The translations under genes and the position numbers were made by a program. A stretch of 64,000 bases of DNA, taken from assembly GCF_000012885.1 (NCBI RefSeq), contig NC_007498.2, positions 2,884,001-2,948,000 on the forward strand. The letters run 5' to 3'. This document shows, piece after piece, positions 5,443 to 36,465 of the stretch; position 1 is the stretch's first letter, and the number at the start of each line of letters is the position of its first letter. The notes beneath the pieces were generated by a model that was not told the origin of the DNA, did no database searches, and saw only the letters and a list, made by a program, of their open reading frames with translations. This DNA comes from Syntrophotalea carbinolica DSM 2380 (GTDB lineage Bacteria > Desulfobacterota > Desulfuromonadia > Desulfuromonadales > Syntrophotaleaceae).

Positions 5443-5928
5443 CTAGGCCTGGTGCCGAATGCCATCCCGCCACTGGGCCAGCAGTAACATACCCACACCG
5501 ACACAGATGGCCGAGTCCGCCACGTTGAAAGCCGGCCAGTGGTACTGATACCAGTGGACATCGAGAAAATCGACAACTTCTCCAAACCGTACCCGGTCGA
5601 TGAGATTGCCGATCGCGCCACCGAGCACCAGACTTACGGCGCATCGCCCCAGCACCTGATCGGGCCGATACTGGCGATAAAACCACGCCAGGAAAACCAC
5701 GGCCACCGAGGTGGTGATGATAAAAAAGGGCACCCGGTATTCGGTATTGGCCAGGATGCCGAAGGCCGCACCCTTATTGCGCACGTACACCAGATCGAAA
5801 AAATTCGGCACCACCGGCAGGGCCTCGTGCAATTTCAGGCAGCGCACGATGAGTCCCTTCGTAAGCTGGTCAACGGCCACCACCAGGGTGGCGATCAGCA
5901 GCAATATACGAAATTGGGCCAGTTTCAT
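5443..5928 (-). CDS. lspA: Lipoprotein signal peptidase (signal peptidase II)
   Basis: A 161-residue inner-membrane aspartyl peptidase that removes signal peptides from diacylated prolipoproteins. Four hydrophobic segments are visible. The two catalytic-aspartate motifs are [10 protein letters not shown] and [11 protein letters not shown] near residues 110-130, and the N-terminal DQLTKGLI is conserved. Its ATG at 5928 overlaps the ileS stop (ATGA), so the pair is translationally coupled. The window encodes at least two likely substrates, the lipoproteins at 11653-13011 and 13028-13450. Confidence 0.96.
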
Positions 5929-8708
5929 CGATCGGTAAGTACCGCAACGCAACGATGACACAAGGCCGGATGTTCGGCGCTGTCACCGACGGAGGTTGCA
6001 TAGTTCCAGCATCGCTCGCACTTCTCGCCCAGGGCTTTCTCCACCTTGACCTTGAGATCGGGAAGGTTTTCGCCCGTCAGACCATCCGCCAGATCATCGA
6101 CCAGTTCAACCTGGGAAACAATGAATAACGAGGCCAGCTGATCCCGGTATTTTTCCAGCAATTCCAGGGTCGCTCCGGCCGGCGCGCTCAGCAGTACCCG
6201 GGCATCGAGAGAGTGTCCGATAACCTTTTCATTACGCGCCAGCTCCAGAGCCTTGGAGACATCGGAGCGAATTTCGAGCAGGTTATCGTAACGCTCTTCC
6301 AGTGCGGCATCGCGGAAACTGGTGGGGAATTGAACAAATTCTCCCAGATGCACACTTTCCGAACGCTCACCGGGCATAAACGCCCAGATTTCCTCAGCGG
6401 TGAAGGACAGCACCGGTGCGATCAGGCGCGTGATACAATCCAGAATCCGGTACATGGCCGTCTGCGCACTGCGACGTGCGATACTGTCGGTTCCGGAAAC
6501 GTAAAGACGGTCTTTAAGCACATCGAGATAAAACGAACTCATTTCGACACTGCAGAAATTATGCACCGCGTGATAAATGATATGGAACTCGTAATCTTCG
6601 TAAGCCTTCTCCACCCGTCCGGCCAGGTCCTCGAGCTTGGCCAGGGCCCAGCGGTCGAGTTCCAGCAACTGATCGTCGGCCACCATATCCCGTGACGGGT
6701 CGAAACCGCTCAGGTTGCCGAGGATATAACGGGCGGTATTGCGGATACGACGATAAGCGTCGGAAAGCCGCTGCAGGATTTCGTTGCTGATACGAATATC
6801 ATCCCGATAGTCCTGGGCCGCTACCCACAAACGCAGGATTTCCGCACCGTACTTCTTGATCACTTCCTCCGGCGCGACCACGTTGCCCACCGACTTGGAC
6901 ATCTTTTTGCCCTTGCCGTCGACCACAAAGCCATGCGTCAGCACCGACTTATAGGGCGTGAGTTCGCGGGTTCCCACCGAAGCGAGCAGACTGGAATGAA
7001 ACCAGCCCCGGTGCTGATCGCTGCCTTCCAGATACAGATCGGCAGGCCAGCTGAGATAATCACGGTTATCGAGTACGGCGGCATGGGACACGCCGGAATC
7101 GAACCAGACGTCGAGAATATCGGTCTCCTTGGTAAACTCGTCGTGACCGCAGCCGGGGCAGGTCGTGCCGGCCGGCATCAACTCCTTCGCCGGTTTGTCG
7201 AACCAAAGGTCGCTGCCGCCTTCCTCGAACAGGTCAGCCACGTAGTCCATCACCTTGCTGTCTTCCAGGGCTTCGCCGCATTTGGCGCAATAGAAGATGG
7301 TGATAGGGACCCCCCAGCTACGCTGGCGGCTGATACACCAGTCGGGGCGGTTTTCAACCATATTGTAAATACGATCGCGGCCCCAACGCGGAACCCAGTT
7401 CACGTCATTGATGTGCCCCAGGGCTTTTTCCCGCAGCCCGTTGGCCTCCATGGAGATAAACCATTGCTCGGTGGCACGGAAAATTATGGGCTTTTTACAG
7501 CGCCAGCAATGCGGGTAGCTGTGACTGACCTCGGATTCTTTGAGCAATGCGCCCACCTCGGTCAGCTTGGCGTTCACCGCGCCGTTGGCCTGGTTGATTT
7601 TCATACCGCCGAAGAATTCGACGTCCTCGTAGTAGCGACCGTAATTGTCGACCGGATTGTAAACATCCAGGCCATAAGCCAGCCCGACCACATAGTCATC
7701 CTGGCCATGGCCAGGCGCGGTGTGAACACAACCGGTACCGGCTTCCAGCGTGACATGGTCACCCAGAATAAGCAGCGACGGCCGATCGTAAAACGGGTGG
7801 CGGCAGGTCTTGCGCTCGAATATCGGCGCTTCGAAGGTTTTCAGTACCCGGTAGTTTTCCAGCCCCAGCTCCTGCATGACACCGGAAACCAGCCCTTCGG
7901 CCATAACCAGCAGTTCGTCACCGGTTTCGACGACGGCATACGGCAGGTTCGGATTCAGGCATACTGCGAGATTGGCGGGAATGGTCCAGGGAGTCGTGGT
8001 CCAGATGACAAACGATAATTTACGCCCGGCAAGATCGTTCAACTCCGCAGGCAGTTCCCCGTCAAAGGGGAATTTAACGTAGATAGACGGCGACTTATGA
8101 TCGGCGTATTCCACCTCCGCTTCCGCCAGGGCGGTAACGCAGGAGGAGCACCAGTGAATCGGTTTTTTACCTTTAAACAGACCGCCTTTTTCCACAAAGC
8201 GCGCCAATTCGCGGGCCGTCACCGCTTCGTAGTGGTGAGTCATGGTCAGGTAGGGACGATCCCACTCCCCCATAACGCCCAGACGTTCGAACTCCTCACT
8301 CTGGATCTTGACCCACTGGTCGGCATAAACACGGCATTCCTTGCGGATTTCGACCTTGGTCATGTCCCGTTTTTTTTTGCCGAGTTTTTTATCCACCATC
8401 AACTCGATGGGCAGACCGTGGCAGTCCCAGCCCGGTACATAAGGAGCGTAGAACCCCTTCATGCGACGGCTTTTAAGGACAATATCCTTGAGAATTTTAT
8501 TCAGGGCATGGCCGATGTGAATGTGGCCGTTGGCATAAGGGGGGCCATCATGCAGAGTGAAATTGGGCCGGGTGCGACCGGCCTCCTCCATCTTTTCATA
8601 AAGCCCCATGGACTGCCATTTTTCGAGGATCTCAGGTTCCCGCTTAGGCAAGTTGCCACGCATGGGAAACTGGGTATCTGGCAGATTCAGGGTCTGTTTG
8701 TAGTCCAT
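5925..8708 (-). CDS. ileS: Isoleucyl-tRNA synthetase
   Basis: A 927-residue class I aminoacyl-tRNA synthetase charging tRNA-Ile. Motifs in order: the HIGH signature in [12 protein letters not shown] near residue 60, the editing domain with [13 protein letters not shown], the KMSKS signature in [12 protein letters not shown], the anticodon-binding region, and a C-terminal zinc site (CERCWNY and CHRC). The ATG at 8708 follows GGAGGAG; the frame is open 34 codons further up but lacks a site. ileS-lspA is a common pairing. No T-box leader is seen upstream. Confidence 0.97.
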
Positions 8709-19990: not shown

Positions 19991-20713
19991 ATGGACCGAA
20001 CCTTCCGCGTCATGTTGCTGGGAGAAAACCAACGTCTGTCGAACTTTCTTACGGATTACCTGCACCGTCACGGCTATGAAACCATGGCGGCATTGCAGGA
20101 ACCTGGCATTTGTGCCGCCGTCGCCTGCGATAAGCCGGACCTGATGATTATCGATTCAACACCTTCTGCCACCGACGCCGATACATTGTTCCACGATATA
20201 CGCACGGTTTACCAGGGACCGGTGATCGTGCTGACCGAACCGACGGATACTCAGCCCATGCAGGATGATACAACCCTGCTGTCCGATGCCTATGTCAGCA
20301 AACCTATCGAACCGCATACCCTGTTGGCCAGGATGCGGACACTGCTGAAACGATTTTACGGCTCCAGGGGATCGGATCTCTCGGCGGACATGGCCAAAAG
20401 GCCAATACTGCACTTCGGCCGGTTGCTGATCAACCGTCCATCCCGCAAAGTCATGTTCCAGAAAAAAACCATCCCCTTGAGCAGCACCGAGTTCGACCTG
20501 CTCACCCTGCTGGCCGGCCATGCCGGTACCATACTCGACCGGGACACCATCAACCGGCGATTGCGCGGTATCCCGTACGACGGAATCGACCGCTCCATCG
20601 ATGTCTCTGTGTCGCGCCTGCGTAAAAAGCTGGGTGACCAAAAAGGGCACCATTCCCGTATTAAGACGGTCTGGGGCAAAGGATACCTGTTTGTACCCGA
20701 CGCCTGGGAATGA
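19991..20713 (+). CDS. OmpR/PhoB-type response regulator, degenerate receiver
   Basis: A 240-residue regulator. The receiver domain (residues 5-120) has the phospho-acceptor Asp55 in LMIIDS, Thr82 and Lys104 in SKPIEP. The usual acidic pair that binds Mg2+ is reduced to Gly11-Glu12 in LLGENQRL. The C-terminal winged helix (about 135-238) has SSTEFDLLTLL, DRSIDVSVSRLRKKLGD and KGYLF, closest in pattern to RstA-type regulators. AAAGGAG precedes the ATG. No histidine kinase adjoins, so it is an orphan. Confidence 0.9.
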   Translation: MDRTFRVMLLGENQRLSNFLTDYLHRHGYETMAALQEPGICAAVACDKPDLMIIDSTPSATDADTLFHDIRTVYQGPVIVLTEPTDTQPMQDDTTLLSDAYVSKPIEPHTLLARMRTLLKRFYGSRGSDLSADMAKRPILHFGRLLINRPSRKVMFQKKTIPLSSTEFDLLTLLAGHAGTILDRDTINRRLRGIPYDGIDRSIDVSVSRLRKKLGDQKGHHSRIKTVWGKGYLFVPDAWE

Positions 20714-21044: not shown

Positions 21045-23234
21045 ATGAAGATCCAGGGCAAAATCATTGCCATGGGGGTTACTCTGGTAGTGCTCACGAC
21101 AGCGGCTATCGTCGGCATTACCCACCTCCAGGAAAAACGCATCGGTCAGAGCGTCACCAACGTCATAGAAAACCAGGCCCGCCAGGAAACCGCCAAAGTA
21201 GCGCGTAATATCCATCTGATGTGCGAGGTGATGCGCGAATCGGTGACCGAGACGGTTCTGCACAATCTCAAAGTCACCGAGGCCCTTATGCATCGGGAGG
21301 GCGACATCTCCTTCGCTTCCGAAAAGGTGCGATGGGTGGCGGTCAACCAATTTACCAAAGAAACAAAATCCCTTCTTTTGCCTAAAATGCTTCTCGGCAA
21401 TCAGTGGTTCGGACAGAACCGCGATGCCGAATATCCCACGCCCCTGGTCGATGAGGTCGAACGCCTGGCCGGGGGGACCACCAGTGTTTTTCAGCGCATG
21501 AATGAACAGGGAGATATGCTGCGCATTGCCACCAATGTTCTGCAAAACAACGGCATGCGGGCCATCGGCACCTATATCCCCGCCGAAAACCCGGACGGTA
21601 CCCCCAACGAGGTCATTACGGCGGTCATGCGCGGCGAGACCTTTCTGGGCCGCGCTTTTGTCGTCAATGCCTGGTACATAACCGCTTATCAGCCAATTTG
21701 GGACAAGGGCCACAAGGAAGTCATCGGAGTTCTTTATTATGGCGCCAAGCAGGAGAATGTCGCCAGTTTGCGACAAGGCGTAAAAGCCATGCAGGTTGGC
21801 CAGACGGGTGAAGTTTTTATCCTCGGCGGCAAGAACAAAAATCGCGGCATCGTTCAGATCAGCCGCCAAAGCAAACTGGAAGGCACCAGTTTATGGGATT
21901 TTCAGGATAGCCGGAACGGTCGTTTCTTCATCCGCAGCCTGGTGGACAAGGCGCTGGCGCTGCATACCGAATCCGAAACCGATATTCCTGTCGCGTTTGA
22001 ACGGTTTGAGTTTCAGCACAAAGGGGAAAAAGCGCCCCGCCTGCGTACCGCGGCGGTGACCTATTTCGAACCTTCGGACTGGGTGATTGTCGCCATTTTC
22101 AACGAAGACGATCTGCAGGCGGCCCAGGATTCGGTCAAGGCCGGGCTGTTTGCCATTATCCGTTCCACGATGACCGTAGCGGCCCTGGTGCTCGTGGTGG
22201 CCGTTATCGTGGGATTGATCATGGCCCGCAGCATCAGTAAGCCACTGAAACAAACCCTCGACATGATCCTCGATTTGGAGGAAGGCAATCTGGACCAGCG
22301 GTTGAATTTCTCCCGCTCCGACGAGATCGGTGAAATCGCCGGAGCCGTGGACCATTTTGCCGACAACCTGCAGGAAGAAATCCATACGGCTTTCGATAAG
22401 CTGGCGCATGGCGATTTCACCTTCAAAGCCAAAGGCCTCATCGCCAAGCCGCTGGCCCGGGCCAACATCGCGCTGAATGAACTGGTGCAGGAAATCCAGG
22501 ATATTGCCAACCAGGTTGCCAGTTGCGCCGCCGATGTTTCGTCGGAAATAACCATACCGCTCCCCGACGGACAGTCTGAACCCAACGGGCATGATCTTAT
22601 GGACGGCATGGCACAGACCGTCGCGGAGATGAACGCCTCGGCGGAGGATATATCCAAAATCATCAAGATCGTGGATGAAATCGCCTTCCAGACCAACCTG
22701 CTTACCCTTAACTCCGCGATGGTGGCAACCCGCGACGGCCAGCAGAGCAAGGGCTTTGCGGCAGTGGCCGAAGAAGTGCGGACCCTGGCCGCCCGCAGTG
22801 CCCGCGCCGCCAAAGAGACGGCAGATCTGATTGAGAGCACCGGCGACAGCAACGGCAGCGAGCTGGCCGACCATACCGCCCAGACACTACGAAAGATCGT
22901 TGCCGGCATCGGAAAGATCACCGACCTTGCATCGGAAATCGCCGTCGCCAGCCGGGAAAAATCCCTCGGCATCACCCTGTATCCGCCAACGCAGCCAGAG
23001 GACAATGATGCCACCGAGCATCTACCCGCCACGCAGGAAAGCACCGACTCGGCAAAGACCCTGGCGGAACAGGCGCAGAGATTGAAACAGTTGCTCGGCA
23101 ATTTCAAGGTTATGCAGAAAAACAACCTTGCGGCCTGGACGGAACTGCGCGCCCAGGCCATAACCCGCAAGGCGCAGAAACAATCACGACGCTCCCCCAA
23201 GCCGTCGGAAACGGCGCAGGATGAGGAAACCTGA
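21045..23234 (+). CDS. Methyl-accepting chemotaxis-type protein, degenerate tip
   Basis: A 729-residue membrane receptor. Transmembrane helix 1 is at residues 8-26 and helix 2 at about 371-394, enclosing a Cache-type sensor domain of about 340 residues (a Cache3/Cache2-like layout with YITAYQPIWD and GEVFILGG). A HAMP domain follows (395-450). The signalling hairpin is short: its tip is DEIAFQTNLLTLNSAMVAT at residues 544-562, where the canonical Glu of VEAAR is Val560. Weak similarity after residue 600 suggests a trimmed bundle. It may signal poorly to CheA. No che genes adjoin. Confidence 0.88.
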   Translation: MKIQGKIIAMGVTLVVLTTAAIVGITHLQEKRIGQSVTNVIENQARQETAKVARNIHLMCEVMRESVTETVLHNLKVTEALMHREGDISFASEKVRWVAVNQFTKETKSLLLPKMLLGNQWFGQNRDAEYPTPLVDEVERLAGGTTSVFQRMNEQGDMLRIATNVLQNNGMRAIGTYIPAENPDGTPNEVITAVMRGETFLGRAFVVNAWYITAYQPIWDKGHKEVIGVLYYGAKQENVASLRQGVKAMQVGQTGEVFILGGKNKNRGIVQISRQSKLEGTSLWDFQDSRNGRFFIRSLVDKALALHTESETDIPVAFERFEFQHKGEKAPRLRTAAVTYFEPSDWVIVAIFNEDDLQAAQDSVKAGLFAIIRSTMTVAALVLVVAVIVGLIMARSISKPLKQTLDMILDLEEGNLDQRLNFSRSDEIGEIAGAVDHFADNLQEEIHTAFDKLAHGDFTFKAKGLIAKPLARANIALNELVQEIQDIANQVASCAADVSSEITIPLPDGQSEPNGHDLMDGMAQTVAEMNASAEDISKIIKIVDEIAFQTNLLTLNSAMVATRDGQQSKGFAAVAEEVRTLAARSARAAKETADLIESTGDSNGSELADHTAQTLRKIVAGIGKITDLASEIAVASREKSLGITLYPPTQPEDNDATEHLPATQESTDSAKTLAEQAQRLKQLLGNFKVMQKNNLAAWTELRAQAITRKAQKQSRRSPKPSETAQDEET

Positions 23235-31408: not shown

Positions 31409-31436
31409 TTGACACAAACCTTGCTTTTAATATATT
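31409..31436 (+). promoter_or_regulatory. Sigma-70 promoter of the FIST/roadblock operon
   Basis: TTGACA at 31409-31414, a 16-base spacer, then TATATT at 31431-31436. The predicted leader is about 150 bases long. Confidence 0.7.
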
Positions 31437-31526
31437 AATCATAGCTACTTGAGTTCATTTGCCAAGGTTGTCTCCTCGCACTCCCCTCAACACCATTCGG
31501 CAAGATCAACCCCACAAACAAAGGTA

Positions 31527-31564
31527 TTCAGCTGCACAAACCCTGTTCGGTTTGAGCAGCTGAA
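31527..31564 (+). promoter_or_regulatory. Long leader hairpin before the FIST gene
   Basis: TTCAGCTGC-A-CAAACC pairs with GGTTTG-A-GCAGCTGAA around a six-base loop, a 15-bp stem with one A-A mismatch. It ends 16 bases before the AGGAGG ribosome site. A T-rich stretch (TTTCTTTTT) follows after six bases, so it could be an attenuator or an mRNA stabiliser. Confidence 0.65.
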
Positions 31565-31592
31565 GGATGATTTCTTTTTCAGGAGGTGTTTC

Positions 31593-32936
31593 ATGGCAGG
31601 GAAAATACGGCAGATGATCGACAGCATCATCGCCCAGACGGCAACGAACAATCCCGTACTGGAACGTGTAATCAAAACCAAGATGATTCTCAAAGGAATC
31701 AACCCGGCTAAATTCACCGCCGAGTCGGATGACGACCCCGCCATTATCGCCAAACTTGAAAACATGAAGCAGGCATTCACAGGCACCGGCGGCAAAAACA
31801 CCCCCGCAGCACGGCAACGCTCCGGCGCGGGAAAAATCAAGACAGCCTTCTCCAGCAAAACCACAACGGCCGATTGCGTCAGGGAAATCCAAAGCCAGAT
31901 CGCAGACCTGGATCCGTCCGCTGTCATTTTTTTCGCGTCCACCGTCCATGCTCCCGAGGCCATAAGCCGCCAGATGCAGGACGCCTTTCCCAAGGCGCAG
32001 GTTTTCGGGTGTTCTTCGGCGGGGGAAATCACCAGCGGAGCCATGCTCAACGACTCTGTCGTCGCCATGGCTTTTTCTGCCGAGATGGCACCGGATCTTA
32101 AACTCGAGGTTATCCGGAACCTCGGGCAACGCCACGGCATCGAACAGGCATTCGGGAATTTTGAAAAACACTTCGGGCAACCGGTGGCCGCCATGGATCC
32201 GACCCGCTATGTGGGCCTGCTGTTGATCGATGGCCTGGCCGGGGTGGAAGAGAAGGTGACGGAAACCCTCGGCGATTTGACCAACGTGCCTTTTATCGGA
32301 GGATCCGCCGGGGACGATCTGCAGTTCACCGGCACCTATGTTTATGCCAACGGCAACTGTTACCGGAATGCCGCCCTGCTTGCCCTGCTGAAACCGGGGG
32401 TTCGTTTTTCGTTCATAAAAACGCAAAGCTTCCGCCTTCTGGGCAAAACCCTCAAGGTCACCCGGGCCAACGAAGCCAACCGGGAAGTCATTGCGTTTAA
32501 CGGCAAACCCGCAGCCCAGGCCTATGCCGAAGCCATCGGGGTGCCGACCCCAGAAGTCAGCCGCCGGTTTATGCGCAACCCCATCGGCCTTATTGTCGAC
32601 GGCGAGCCTTATGTCCGCAGCCCGCAAAGGCTGAAGGGCGACACCATGGCGTTTTACTGCAGCGTCAAAGAGGGCATGAAGCTCTCCCTCCTGGAGTCAA
32701 CCGACATGCTTAGCGACACTCGTGACGCCATTTCCCGGGCCGAGAAAACAATGGGGCGCATATCCGGGATACTCGATTTCGACTGCATTTTGCGAACACT
32801 CGACCTGCGGCAGAAAAACCTTTCCACCGAATACGGCAGGATTTTTACCGATATTCCAACCGTCGGATTCAGTACCTATGGCGAACAGTACATAGGGCAT
32901 ATCAATCAAACAGCAACCATGCTGGTCTTCGGCTGA
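31593..32936 (+). CDS. FIST-domain sensory protein
   Basis: A 447-residue soluble protein. After about 90 residues of linker-like sequence, FIST_N runs from about residue 105 (SQIADLDPSAVIFFAST, FGCSSAGEITSG), and FIST_C follows with GGSAGDDLQFTGTYVYAN and a C-terminal FSTYGEQYIGHINQTATMLV. FIST domains are predicted to bind small ligands, perhaps amino acids, and usually feed kinases, cyclases or chemotaxis proteins. None is fused here. ATG 31593 follows AGGAGG. It is first in a six-gene plus-strand run with roadblock, V4R-like and MinD/ParA proteins. Confidence 0.88.
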   Translation: MAGKIRQMIDSIIAQTATNNPVLERVIKTKMILKGINPAKFTAESDDDPAIIAKLENMKQAFTGTGGKNTPAARQRSGAGKIKTAFSSKTTTADCVREIQSQIADLDPSAVIFFASTVHAPEAISRQMQDAFPKAQVFGCSSAGEITSGAMLNDSVVAMAFSAEMAPDLKLEVIRNLGQRHGIEQAFGNFEKHFGQPVAAMDPTRYVGLLLIDGLAGVEEKVTETLGDLTNVPFIGGSAGDDLQFTGTYVYANGNCYRNAALLALLKPGVRFSFIKTQSFRLLGKTLKVTRANEANREVIAFNGKPAAQAYAEAIGVPTPEVSRRFMRNPIGLIVDGEPYVRSPQRLKGDTMAFYCSVKEGMKLSLLESTDMLSDTRDAISRAEKTMGRISGILDFDCILRTLDLRQKNLSTEYGRIFTDIPTVGFSTYGEQYIGHINQTATMLVFG

Positions 32937-33024
32937 CATGAACATACCTGGCCCCAGGACCGGATTCCCGAATACCAATGGCAACAATCCGCAGTGAACA
33001 CCTTCACAATGAGGATGGTTTCCC

Positions 33025-33801
33025 ATGACCGGTTTCAACAGCTCCACCCTGACAGGACCTCCGAAGGATAACGGTCTGCACGGCAGTCTGTCCCTGACCA
33101 CCATTACGGATCTTTTGCAGTTTCTGGCCGCCAGTGCCAAAAGCGGCGCCATCAGAATCATACGCGAACCGGAAAATGACGAGGGCATGATTTATTTCGC
33201 CAAAGGAGAGATCCTTTCCGCCCGGACCGGCGAAACGACGGGCCTCCACAGTTTCGCCACCATGATGAACTGGGAAAAGGGAACTTTCTATTTTCTGCCC
33301 GGCATCGCCCCCCTGGAAACATCCATCGGCTTGCCCGTTCAGCATGCCATCCTTGAAGCCATTGTCCTGCTGGAAAACAAGGCGAACAGTTTCTCACCCA
33401 TCACCGAGCAAGAGATTGAAGAAGGGAGCACGCATATGGAACAGGAACCGAGAGAGTCTACCGAGGTCATGAATAATCTGCTGGAGATCTCCGGCATCGA
33501 TGCCGTGGTGGTCGTCGGTCGTGACGGTTTTGTCATTGAATCCACCGGCAGCAGCGCACGCATCAATATCGACGAACTCGGTGCATCTCTGGCCCACGCC
33601 ATCAACGGCATTGAGGAAATGGGTACGGAATTGAACATCAACTGTTTCCAGGACATGTTCATCGAGTACGGCAGCGCCGTCATCATGTGCAAACCGGTAG
33701 GCGATGCCATCGCCGCCGTCGTTACCCCCGATGCATCCAAGTTGGGCATCATCCGCCACAAGACCAAAAAGTTATTCCAGGAGCTTGGCCTGTCATTCTA
33801 G
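33025..33801 (+). CDS. DUF4388 plus roadblock/LC7 protein
   Basis: A 258-residue soluble protein. Residues about 16-115 are a DUF4388 (PATAN-like) module: GLHGSLSLTTITDLLQFLAA, GAIRI, GMIYFAKGEILSA. Residues about 143-255 are a roadblock/LC7 module: GIDAVVVVGRDGFVIESTG, IEYGSAVIMCKPVGD. Roadblock proteins such as MglB regulate small GTPases or ATPases; DUF4388 is common in delta-proteobacterial signalling. ATG 33025 has only a weak GAGG site ahead. It follows the FIST gene by 88 bases and precedes the first V4R-like gene by 14. Confidence 0.88.
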   Translation: MTGFNSSTLTGPPKDNGLHGSLSLTTITDLLQFLAASAKSGAIRIIREPENDEGMIYFAKGEILSARTGETTGLHSFATMMNWEKGTFYFLPGIAPLETSIGLPVQHAILEAIVLLENKANSFSPITEQEIEEGSTHMEQEPRESTEVMNNLLEISGIDAVVVVGRDGFVIESTGSSARINIDELGASLAHAINGIEEMGTELNINCFQDMFIEYGSAVIMCKPVGDAIAAVVTPDASKLGIIRHKTKKLFQELGLSF

Positions 33802-33815
33802 GAGGAAACATCACG

Positions 33816-34328
33816 ATGCTTAACCTCGATTTTACCCTCGATGAAAAAACCTACCGCCACTACCTCAACGGACACCCGGTGGTCATGCACTCGCATCACT
33901 ACCTGGCGCTTATAACCAAGCTGGCGGAAGATCTCGGCGATGTTCGCGGGCCCCAGATCCTGGCCGAAACGGTTGAAGACAGCATGCGCGCCATTTTTGA
34001 CGATTATTTTCAGAAAAACGCCATCAGCTCCACCCAGGACAGGGCGGCTGTATGCACCCGGTACTTTTCAGCTTTCGGCTTGGGAAAAATGAGTATCAAG
34101 GGTGACGAACAAAACGGCGAAGCCCGTTTGATCCACTCCCATATCGATGAAGGCTGGCTGAGAAAATGGGGCAACCACGACAAGCCCGTCAATCATTTTA
34201 CCCGCGGTTATGTAGCCGCCGCTTTTGCCGCGCTTTTCAATCGCCCCGCCAGAAGTTACGTCGTCACTGAAACCGCCAGCATGGTCACAGGCGAAGAACA
34301 AAGCGTCTTCGTCGTCAAAGCGGCCTGA
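33816..34328 (+). CDS. V4R-like small-molecule-binding protein 1
   Basis: A 170-residue soluble protein beginning MLNLDFTLDEKTYRHYLNG. The layout of helices, then a C-terminal half with NHFTRGYVAAAFAALF and a final strand pair YVVTETASMVTGEEQSVF, resembles the 4-vinyl-reductase (V4R) fold, which binds small hydrophobic ligands. The assignment is by pattern, so it is tentative. A histidine-rich stretch (VVMHSHHYLAL) could be a ligand or metal site. TAGGAGGA precedes the ATG. It appears distantly related to the next gene, suggesting duplication. Confidence 0.65.
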   Translation: MLNLDFTLDEKTYRHYLNGHPVVMHSHHYLALITKLAEDLGDVRGPQILAETVEDSMRAIFDDYFQKNAISSTQDRAAVCTRYFSAFGLGKMSIKGDEQNGEARLIHSHIDEGWLRKWGNHDKPVNHFTRGYVAAAFAALFNRPARSYVVTETASMVTGEEQSVFVVKAA

Positions 34329-34347
34329 ACAAGGAGAACAGACTCAA

Positions 34348-34926
34348 ATGACGGTCATGCGTAATAACGTGGTAAAAGCCCTTGCCAAGGTTACCGTGCA
34401 GAGCAACGAACAGGGATTGATCCCCGAATACGAGGTGCTGGTCAACCTGCTGCCGGTATCCCTGCTCAATACCTTGACGGAAAGACTGCTCGCCGCGGCC
34501 CCCGAGCGCAAAGAAGAAATCGAAGCGGGCCTGGTCAGGGCTGCCTATGAATGCGGCTATCACACCGGTTGCGGCATCATCACTTCCGATATTTTCAGCG
34601 AAGTCGTCATGCCTATGGTTACCGAAGGCGAGAAAGACATCCTGCGCGGTGCCTATGCGGCCTTTACCGCCTGGGGCTGGGCCAAATCGGGCATCGTACA
34701 GCTTAAAGAAGGCCAGAGAATGATTATCCGCGCCTTTGATTATTACGAAGCGGACAGCCAGGGAGAAGGATTGCGGGCGTATATGCTGCGCGGACTCAAT
34801 CAGGCCTTCTTCGATCTGGCCTACGCCGACCCTTACCCGGATGGCATGAATACCTTTGTCTGCAAACAGACCAAAGGCCTGGAAACCGGTGACACTTATG
34901 GGGAATTTATCGTTACCCTGAAGTGA
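34348..34926 (+). CDS. V4R-like small-molecule-binding protein 2
   Basis: A 192-residue soluble protein with the same plan as its neighbour: an N-terminal helical part, GYHTGCGIITSDIF, then RGAYAAFTAWGWAKSGIVQL and closing strands MIIRAFDYYEAD and NTFVCKQTKGLETGD. Cysteines at GCG and FVCKQ may be relevant, as V4R domains often carry metal-binding Cys. AAGGAG lies 11 bases before 34348; an ATG three codons later is also possible. A G/C hairpin and 158 bases separate it from the ATPase gene. Confidence 0.65.
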   Translation: MTVMRNNVVKALAKVTVQSNEQGLIPEYEVLVNLLPVSLLNTLTERLLAAAPERKEEIEAGLVRAAYECGYHTGCGIITSDIFSEVVMPMVTEGEKDILRGAYAAFTAWGWAKSGIVQLKEGQRMIIRAFDYYEADSQGEGLRAYMLRGLNQAFFDLAYADPYPDGMNTFVCKQTKGLETGDTYGEFIVTLK

Positions 34927-34949
34927 CCACAGCCGTCACTTCTGTAAAC

Positions 34950-34973
34950 GGGCCCAAGCTGCGATAGGGGCCC
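34950..34973 (+). other. GC-rich hairpin between V4R-like and ATPase genes
   Basis: GGGCCC, 12 bases, then GGGCCC. It lies in the only long gap of the operon and could weaken read-through or set an mRNA boundary. There is no U-tract. Confidence 0.4.
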
Positions 34974-35084
34974 TTCCGACTATGCAACACAAATCGCAAT
35001 GGCGGACCAGGCAATCCCAGGACCGTACCAGTAGGCAGGCCCGGTCGAACCAACAGCGCTTCATGTAATGCGGTGAATAAAATT

Positions 35085-35900
35085 ATGGCGAATATTATTT
35101 CGATTATCAGCTCCAAAGGCGGGGCGGGAAAAACCACCATTGCCCTGAATCTCGCAGTGGCCCTGGCTGAAACAGGAGATTCGACCCTGCTCATCGATGT
35201 TGACCCCCTCGGGGCGGTGGGGTTTTCATTGGCCCGTAACGACACGGAATGGCGAGGCCTGGCGGAACATATCGTGGACGAGACGCCCCTGGATGAAGTC
35301 ATCATACAAACCAAACTCCCACAGCTCTCCATCCTGGCACGGGGGTGTCTGGATCCTTTGGACATAGACATTTACGAAAATGTCCTGCGCTGTTCGGATG
35401 CCTTGAAGGACATCGTATCGGCAGTCGAGAATCAATTCCGCCACATCATCATCGACACCCCCTCGGGCCTCGGTTCCGTCACGCGCGCGGCCCTGTCTGT
35501 CAGTACCCACACCCTGCTCCCGCTACAGGCCGAGCCCTTGGCGCTGCGCTCCATTTCGCAAGCATTGCATGTCATCCAGCATGTCAAGGAAAATGAAAAC
35601 CAGGATCTGGAGTTACTCGGGATTCTGGCCATCATGGTGCAGTTGAACAAGGATGTTTCCTTCACCATAATGAATGCCGCCTGGTCGTCCCTGCATGGCG
35701 TGCTGGAAACATACATCCCGCGTGCGGAAGTATTCCATGTAGCCAGTGAAAAAGGGCTGCCGGTAGCGTTCCTGCCCGGCAGATACCCCCCGGAAGCCAA
35801 ACGCTTCGAAATGTTGGCCAGCGAAATCAAAACCCTCATCCAGGATATGGGTGGCGACATGGGAGTCGAAGATGAAAGGCCGCAACGTGAACTCATATAA
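35085..35900 (+). CDS. MinD/ParA-family ATPase
   Basis: A 271-residue deviant-Walker ATPase. Walker A is SSKGGAGKTTIALNLA at about residues 8-23, followed by LLIDVDPLGAVGF, the Walker B-like HIIIDTPSGLGS, and a helical C-terminal half. ParB is absent, and no oriC or plasmid context is seen, so plasmid partition is unlikely. Proteins of this type switch between ATP and ADP forms and position other complexes. The ATG at 35085 has GGTGA 8 bases before; GTG at 35073 is an alternative. Its last 29 bases overlap the next gene, showing tight coupling. Confidence 0.88.
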   Translation: MANIISIISSKGGAGKTTIALNLAVALAETGDSTLLIDVDPLGAVGFSLARNDTEWRGLAEHIVDETPLDEVIIQTKLPQLSILARGCLDPLDIDIYENVLRCSDALKDIVSAVENQFRHIIIDTPSGLGSVTRAALSVSTHTLLPLQAEPLALRSISQALHVIQHVKENENQDLELLGILAIMVQLNKDVSFTIMNAAWSSLHGVLETYIPRAEVFHVASEKGLPVAFLPGRYPPEAKRFEMLASEIKTLIQDMGGDMGVEDERPQRELI

Positions 35901-36465
35901 TCTGGTGTACGCCCGACAGATCCTGTCGACTTTGGCACCACGCAAACAAGCACAGCACACCGCTACCTTTCGCCAGGAACCCCGCTCCTTCGTGCGGCTG
36001 TCCGCGCAAAAAAAGCTGGCCAAAGCAGCGCAACCTTCCCTCCCCGAGCCACCGGATGCAACAACTCCAGGCACATCGTCTGTCGATGCGCCGTCACAGC
36101 CCTTCGCCGATTGGGAAAGCTGCATCGCATGGTGTATGGGCGTGACCCGTGCCGAATCCGCCTTTGTGGTCGATTCACAGGGATTTGTCATCGCCATGCG
36201 CGGCCGTATCCCCGGCCATGGCTTCGAGTGCACGGGAGCGGAATTGATCTACGCCATGGATCAACTGGAGCGCATCGACCCCGAAGCAGGCAGGCTTTTG
36301 TGGATAGATCTCGACTTTAACAAACGCCGTCTGGTCGGCTTTGTCACCCCGGGAGAAAGTGCCGAATATTTCATTGTGGGACTGGTCGCACCGGACGCTT
36401 CCTACAATGCATCAAAGCACGTTATGTCAAAACACATTATCGCCAATCTGGCGAACATGAATTAG
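35872..36465 (+). CDS. Roadblock-like protein with disordered N-terminus
   Basis: A 197-residue protein. Residues 1-75 are polar and proline-rich (basic, probably disordered). Residues about 80-195 look like a roadblock/LC7 fold: ESAFVVDSQGFVIAMRGRI, AELIYAMDQLERID, RLLWIDLDFNKRRLVGFV, AEYFIVGLVAPDAS. The family call is by pattern and less certain than for the DUF4388-roadblock gene. ATG 35872 follows GGGAGTCGAAG and lies inside the end of the ATPase gene. The overlap suggests that the two proteins work together, perhaps as ATPase and regulator. Confidence 0.6.
   Translation: MKGRNVNSYNLVYARQILSTLAPRKQAQHTATFRQEPRSFVRLSAQKKLAKAAQPSLPEPPDATTPGTSSVDAPSQPFADWESCIAWCMGVTRAESAFVVDSQGFVIAMRGRIPGHGFECTGAELIYAMDQLERIDPEAGRLLWIDLDFNKRRLVGFVTPGESAEYFIVGLVAPDASYNASKHVMSKHIIANLANMN

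Follow-up and report, generated by a model that had tools for sequence, protein, structure and literature searches.

We analysed a run of six plus-strand genes (31593-36465) in a 64,000-nucleotide stretch (hereafter, the window) of the single-contig, 3,665,893-base genome of Syntrophotalea carbinolica DSM 2380. On the basis of open reading frame calls and Pfam searches, the run comprises, in order, genes for a FIST protein, a DUF4388-roadblock protein, two V4R-like proteins (V4Ra and V4Rb), a ParA/MinD-type ATPase (ParA) and a roadblock-like protein (Rb2). An initial annotation had described them as a kinase-free sensory cassette behind one good promoter, and both its domain assignments and its promoter were supported; TTGACA-16-TATATT recurs in the leaders of two close relatives (L003 at -190 and L004 at -215 relative to FIST; L numbers denote comparison loci), and TTGACA-18-TATAxx is present in the leaders of L010, L011 and L015. 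The intergenic distances are 88, 14, 19, 158 and -29 nucleotides (nt), so that all gaps but one are short, as had been stated; the exception is the 158 nt upstream of ParA, a position at which most relatives hold an extra gene. The 29-base overlap of the ATPase gene with the last gene was confirmed, and it is exactly 29 nt in all 20 loci compared, Acidobacteriota and Myxococcota records included. All six genes share one direction and are conserved as a unit (Table 1).

Table 1. Features of the operon in the window, and aptamers preceding the operon in related loci
Feature	Position	Strand	Basis or remark
Sigma-70-type promoter, TTGACA-16-TATATT	31409..31436	+	11 of 12 consensus positions; 184 nt 5' of FIST start
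FIST/FIST_C sensor protein	31593..32936	+	Pfam
DUF4388 (PATAN-like) and roadblock/LC7 protein	33025..33801	+	Pfam
V4Ra, V4R-fold protein	33816..34328	+	Alignment, AlphaFold, structure comparison
V4Rb, V4R-fold protein	34348..34926	+	Alignment, AlphaFold, structure comparison, hhalign
158-nt gap (position of the c7 gene in relatives)	34927..35084	+	Locus comparison
ParA/MinD-type deviant Walker ATPase	35085..35900	+	Pfam, nearest structures, alignment
Rb2, roadblock-like C-terminal domain	35872..36465	+	Alignment, conservation profile, hhalign
GEMM-I aptamer	L008:566-644	operon strand	Operon leader
GEMM-I aptamer	L009:150-228	operon strand	Operon leader
GEMM-I aptamer	L012:3645-3724	operon strand	Operon leader
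GEMM-I aptamer	L013:4865-4945	operon strand	Operon leader
GEMM-I aptamer	L014:993-1070	operon strand	Operon leader
GEMM-I aptamer	L016:4998-5076	operon strand	Operon leader
GEMM-I aptamer	L034:4911-4988	operon strand	Operon leader

A scan of 84,980 genomes with V4Rb yielded 56 loci, which are related by descent. Because the loci were chosen on V4Rb only, the other cassette genes in them are independent evidence. V4Ra lies directly 5' of V4Rb in 55 of the 56 loci and in all 12 further loci from a phylum survey (67/68), and this synteny rules out a chance neighbourhood of the cassette genes. Co-occurrence in many genomes, which the initial annotation had named as a check, was supported: FIST is present in all 18 Desulfuromonadales-type loci, and ParA was counted in 22 loci from at least three phyla. 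The gene order is not local, being kept across several phyla. Three architectures were distinguished. The first (the 18 Desulfuromonadales-type loci) consists of FIST, DUF4388-roadblock, V4Ra, V4Rb, usually a further gene (c7), ParA and Rb2, with ParA-Rb2 counted where the contig extends far enough. The second (Acidobacteriota, Myxococcota and others) consists of roadblock, V4Ra, V4Rb, with or without ParA-Rb2, plus two genes, c5 and c8, described below. The third (Planctomycetes and others) consists of c11, V4Ra and V4Rb with c5-c8 and/or chemoreceptors, and is without roadblock and ParA genes; c11 encodes an unnamed protein of 60-70 amino acids directly upstream of V4Ra in 20 loci (within L036-L056). 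Inside the taxonomic order of the window genome, the V4R pair is limited to its own family (11/14 genomes vs 0/122 others), and V4Rb was found in 13 of the 395 genomes of the phylum survey.

The fold of the V4R pair was assigned from structure models. V4Ra matched the Pfam V4R family below the gathering score (7e-4; 20.1 bits against 31 bits), V4Rb had no Pfam match, and sequence searches of the PDB with FIST, V4Ra, V4Rb and Rb2 gave no usable match. AlphaFold models built from the family alignments (predicted local distance difference test scores of 94.7 for V4Ra and 86.2 for V4Rb) had as best structural matches the phenol-sensor domains of PoxR, MopR and DmpR (Z against PoxR/MopR of 18.5 for V4Ra and 17.6 for V4Rb, over about 167-170 residues), followed by the TRAPP Bet3-family proteins (Z of 10-13). 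Judged by these models, both proteins have the V4R/Bet3 fold and not an unrelated one, in agreement with the initial annotation, and the two are divergent paralogues (hhalign of the C-terminal parts, E 3e-5). In the family alignments, V4Ra has an invariant HxHH motif (H25, H27, H28) and is without an invariant cysteine, and V4Rb has the invariant motifs CGYxTGxGI and FTAWGWAK, one invariant cysteine (C69) and one nearly invariant cysteine (C172). Heme binding, considered from a likeness to H-NOX, was not claimed (Z of about 7, too weak). V4R proteins that have been characterised dimerise and contain ligand cavities (PoxR, TRAPPC3/C6 and Thor-TRAPPC3; PMC10933270, PMC2253512).

The FIST product matched Pfam FIST (4e-43) and FIST_C (5e-23) and is the sole FIST protein in the genome. 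Its N-terminal piece of about 65 amino acids is conserved, and about 10 relatives encode this piece in a small gene of its own; a weak hhalign match of the piece to the c11 protein (P 4e-4, probability 35%) suggests that the two may be related. One histidine (H436) is invariant among the 18 FIST proteins of the cassette loci. NosP-type FIST domains sense nitric oxide (NO) via heme and act on a partner protein, usually a kinase (PMC12570481). The FIST protein might be a NosP-type NO sensor whose target is a histidine kinase encoded elsewhere; the pathway would then be a common two-component NO pathway, in which the other genes are effectors or mere passengers. The two FIST domains and a match over the full NosP model (NF041558) speak for this explanation; however, the score of 266.5 bits is under the 450-bit equivalog cut-off, for which reason the protein is not classed as NosP, no kinase is adjacent within the gene run in any of the 18 FIST loci, and the FIST of these loci is always accompanied by V4R and roadblock proteins. 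We consider it very unlikely.

The DUF4388-roadblock product matched DUF4388 (6e-17) and Robl_LC7 (9e-11; 41.9 bits, above the gathering score of 23), and its roadblock part resembles the structures of MglB and CvnB. Roadblock proteins form dimers that serve as platforms for nucleotide switches, as is established for MglB. The extra gene c7, which encodes a DUF4388/roadblock-like protein of about 300 amino acids, is present between V4Rb and ParA in 17 of the 56 loci and in 13 of the 18 Desulfuromonadales-type loci; a remnant of c7 in the 158-nt gap of the window was not accepted (best tblastn E 0.06).

ParA matched Pfam AAA_31 (1e-31), and the solved structures closest to it are those of ParA/Soj. 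It has a deviant Walker A motif, SSKGGAGKTT, with the signature lysine of KGGxGKTT; in the alignment of 14 sequences, G12, G13, G15, K16 and T17 are invariant, the signature K11 is nearly invariant, and the C-terminal tail is conserved. The BcsQ model TIGR03371 scored 75.3 bits, below its cut-off of 157.85. In agreement with the initial annotation, no ParB gene is present in the cassette at the window locus: the gene after ParA is Rb2 in 20 of 20 loci, neither a genome-wide ParB search nor a parS search having been made. Rb2 had no Pfam match in the window, and one of 19 family members gave one at E 0.23; its roadblock assignment comes solely from comparison of the Rb2 family profile with the cassette roadblock profile (hhalign probability 90%, E 1.8e-6). 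In Rb2, a conserved peptide at the N terminus is joined through a variable linker to a C-terminal roadblock-like domain, which is conserved as well. The first nine codons of Rb2 overlap ParA, which confounds their conservation; residues 10-22 lie beyond the overlap and have a conservation of 0.60, vs 0.29 in the linker. Because of the invariant overlap and of this peptide conserved beyond it, we propose that Rb2 is a partner of ParA, an inference from sequence.

The roadblock proteins might instead regulate the MglA GTPase of the genome, ParA-Rb2 being a separate positioning pair that shares the operon by chance. A gene for an MglA-like GTPase of 196 amino acids is indeed present away from the cassette (genome position C1:469592; L094), and the cassette roadblock domain resembles MglB structures. 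However, this MglA already has an MglB-like roadblock gene directly upstream, and in 22 loci, which belong to several phyla, ParA-Rb2 lies downstream of roadblock-V4R genes and MglA is not nearby, so that we regard this explanation as highly improbable.

In seven Desulfuromonadales-type loci, the operon is preceded on the same strand by an aptamer of the cyclic di-GMP (c-di-GMP)-I class (GEMM-I), 95-357 nt 5' of the first gene, and then by an intrinsic terminator. The base just 5' of the first stem, which we take to be position 20 of the Vc2 aptamer and a putative ligand contact, is A in five of these aptamers and G in two (L014, L016). At Vc2 position 20, A goes with cyclic GMP-AMP and G with c-di-GMP. 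The window had no Rfam riboswitch match, and the operon leader was negative also at a permissive threshold. Since the genome has nine GEMM-I aptamers elsewhere and none of them at this operon, cyclic-dinucleotide control is a trait of the relatives and not of the window operon. A further c-di-GMP-I riboswitch (L017:12119-12195, minus strand) lies ahead of an apparent GGDEF-domain gene, a few kilobases from the cassette of that locus. In Geobacter, genes for cytochromes, pili and polysaccharides are controlled by GEMM-Ib riboswitches (PMC6456294); FIST, roadblock and V4R are unmentioned in the two Geobacter papers covered by the analysis, this one included.

The statement that the cassette is kinase-free is right for the cassette in the window and for its branch, but does not hold generally, and we rejected it as a defining trait. 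In L055, a PAS-GAF histidine kinase and sigma-54 response regulators adjoin the V4R core, as do receiver-DUF4388 proteins in L040 and chemoreceptors in L037, L047 and L049. Because kinases, response regulators and chemoreceptors stand beside the same core, the V4R pair seems to be a portable input module with varying outputs. Methyl-accepting chemotaxis proteins were noted within 6.5 kilobases of the V4R pair in L037, L038, L043, L045, L047, L048, L049 and L054; Pfam searches confirmed three of them, and one carries a CZB zinc domain. In L046, a ferredoxin/iron-hydrogenase-type protein (5777-7204) with a C-terminal iron-sulfur domain is encoded just upstream of a small protein and the V4R pair, and may be a sensory hydrogenase-like input. 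In the window, genes for an OmpR-type response regulator (19991-20713) and a chemoreceptor-like protein (21045-23234) lie about 8-11 kilobases upstream, with no evidence of cassette membership.

The second and third architectures include c5, a cysteine-desulfurase-like gene (TIGR01977-related), and c8, which encodes an unnamed protein of about 100 amino acids with an invariant cysteine. These genes were noted near V4Rb in L020, L022-L024, L027, L029, L036, L040-L044, L046-L047 and L049-L056. As the main alternative to our preferred interpretation, the V4R pair might, instead of sensing a small molecule, form with them a redox or sulfur unit (for a persulfide or a thio-cofactor), to which ParA and roadblock proteins were added in some lineages. 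Among the 38 loci outside Desulfuromonadales, 28 have c5 and 27 have c8; the catalytic motif R-x-G-L-H-C is present in 21 of 23 c5 proteins, and the conserved cysteines of c8 and V4Rb likewise speak for this explanation. However, both genes are absent beside all 18 Desulfuromonadales-type cassettes, c8 was found neither in the window genome nor in five of six related cassette-bearing genomes searched (the profile finds it in three control genomes), and the closest folds of the V4R pair are ligand sensors. Because c8 was not found in the genome and c5 is not beside the cassette, this explanation, which we judge unlikely, does not apply in the same form here. Note that c5, the c7 gene and the riboswitch of the relatives are features beyond the initial annotation.

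Our preferred interpretation, offered tentatively and as slightly short of an even chance, is that the cassette is a signalling operon built on the V4Ra-V4Rb pair and relayed via roadblock proteins to ParA partnered by Rb2. V4Ra and V4Rb would associate as a heterodimer whose V4R pocket holds a small ligand, either hydrophobic or aromatic, and FIST would be a second sensor. The DUF4388-roadblock protein, together with c7 in the relatives, would pass the state of the sensors to the ParA ATPase, and Rb2 would be the cognate partner replacing ParB, its N-terminal peptide contacting ParA and its roadblock domain contacting the rest of the cassette. The ligand state would thereby set the ATP cycle of ParA and, through it, where ParA and its cargo are placed in the cell; how much of the system is made would depend on a cyclic dinucleotide in the relatives and on the promoter in the window genome. 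The synteny across phyla, the V4R fold of both proteins, the 29-nt overlap, the conservation of the Rb2 peptide and the riboswitch and terminator of the relatives support this interpretation, as do the dimers and ligand cavities of other V4R proteins and the action of NosP-type FIST domains on a partner protein. Several points weigh against it. The heterodimer, the ligand, the contacts and the output are what we infer. The ParA branch is narrow and the V4R pair wide, the pair functioning without ParA in most lineages, and Rb2 was found in one of the 395 genomes of the phylum survey, namely the window genome. PoxR and Thor-TRAPPC3 have a zinc site of four cysteines (PMC10933270) that is not conserved in V4Ra and V4Rb, which also separates them from the PoxR/MopR-type zinc sensors, and motifs as strictly conserved as those of V4Rb would be compatible with an enzyme too. 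Because the genome carries its own MglA-MglB pair, switches other than ParA could be the targets of the roadblock proteins.

Compared with known systems, V4Ra and V4Rb share with PoxR, MopR and DmpR (XylR_N-V4R) the fold over nearly all of their length (Z of 17-18, about 167 residues), but are two free-standing proteins with 11-17% identity to these and no fused sigma-54 activator. The TRAPP core (Bet3/Trs33 with a Rab GTPase) and the Asgard TRAPPC3 resemble the cassette in the V4R/Bet3 fold (Z of 10-13), in a heteromeric pair of paralogues and in the genomic link to roadblock-type proteins and a P-loop NTPase; the cassette, however, is bacterial, has neither a small GTPase nor a longin subunit, and has a ParA ATPase as its NTPase. 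NosP operons (nosRPK) also hold a FIST sensor, but the cassette is without kinase or response regulator and its FIST is below the NosP equivalog score. Actinobacterial conservons (PMC13343842) are likewise operons of a sensor, a roadblock protein and a P-loop switch (the kinase-like CvnA, an MglB-type roadblock protein, CvnC and a small GTPase); the cassette has neither a CvnA kinase-like protein nor a Ras-like GTPase (CvnD), and its sensors are V4R and FIST proteins. ParA/MinD positioning systems likewise have a deviant Walker ATPase whose gene is overlapped by the next one, for a partner with a conserved N-terminal peptide, but the partner here is roadblock-like and not ParB, MinE or McdB. 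The Geobacter GEMM-I regulons (PMC6456294) correspond to the seven relatives with aptamer and terminator, and not to the window operon, which is without aptamer. In the literature that we searched, neither the six-gene set nor its broad synteny is described, and no paper connects V4R with cysteine desulfurase, or FIST with either roadblock or Geobacter. The parts are of known families, and their combination looks like an undescribed signalling cassette. That it represents a new class of bacterial sensory system, with a V4R heterodimer (the bacterial equivalent of Bet3/Trs33 in TRAPP) as portable core that serves different outputs, a ParA output via roadblock proteins, Rb2 as a ParB-free partner and cyclic-dinucleotide control in the Geobacter group, is possible, though we hold it as rather doubtful.

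More widely, a cysteine-desulfurase-like partner accompanies the V4R pair in many uncultured phyla, and this link is open to testing. If the proposed interpretation is true, a bacterial V4R (Bet3-fold) pair would be combined with roadblock proteins and a P-loop switch, which would bear on the assembly of TRAPP and Ragulator parts; Rb2 would be an additional type of ParA partner; and an uncharacterised sensory operon would join the cyclic-dinucleotide regulon of the electro-active Desulfuromonadales.

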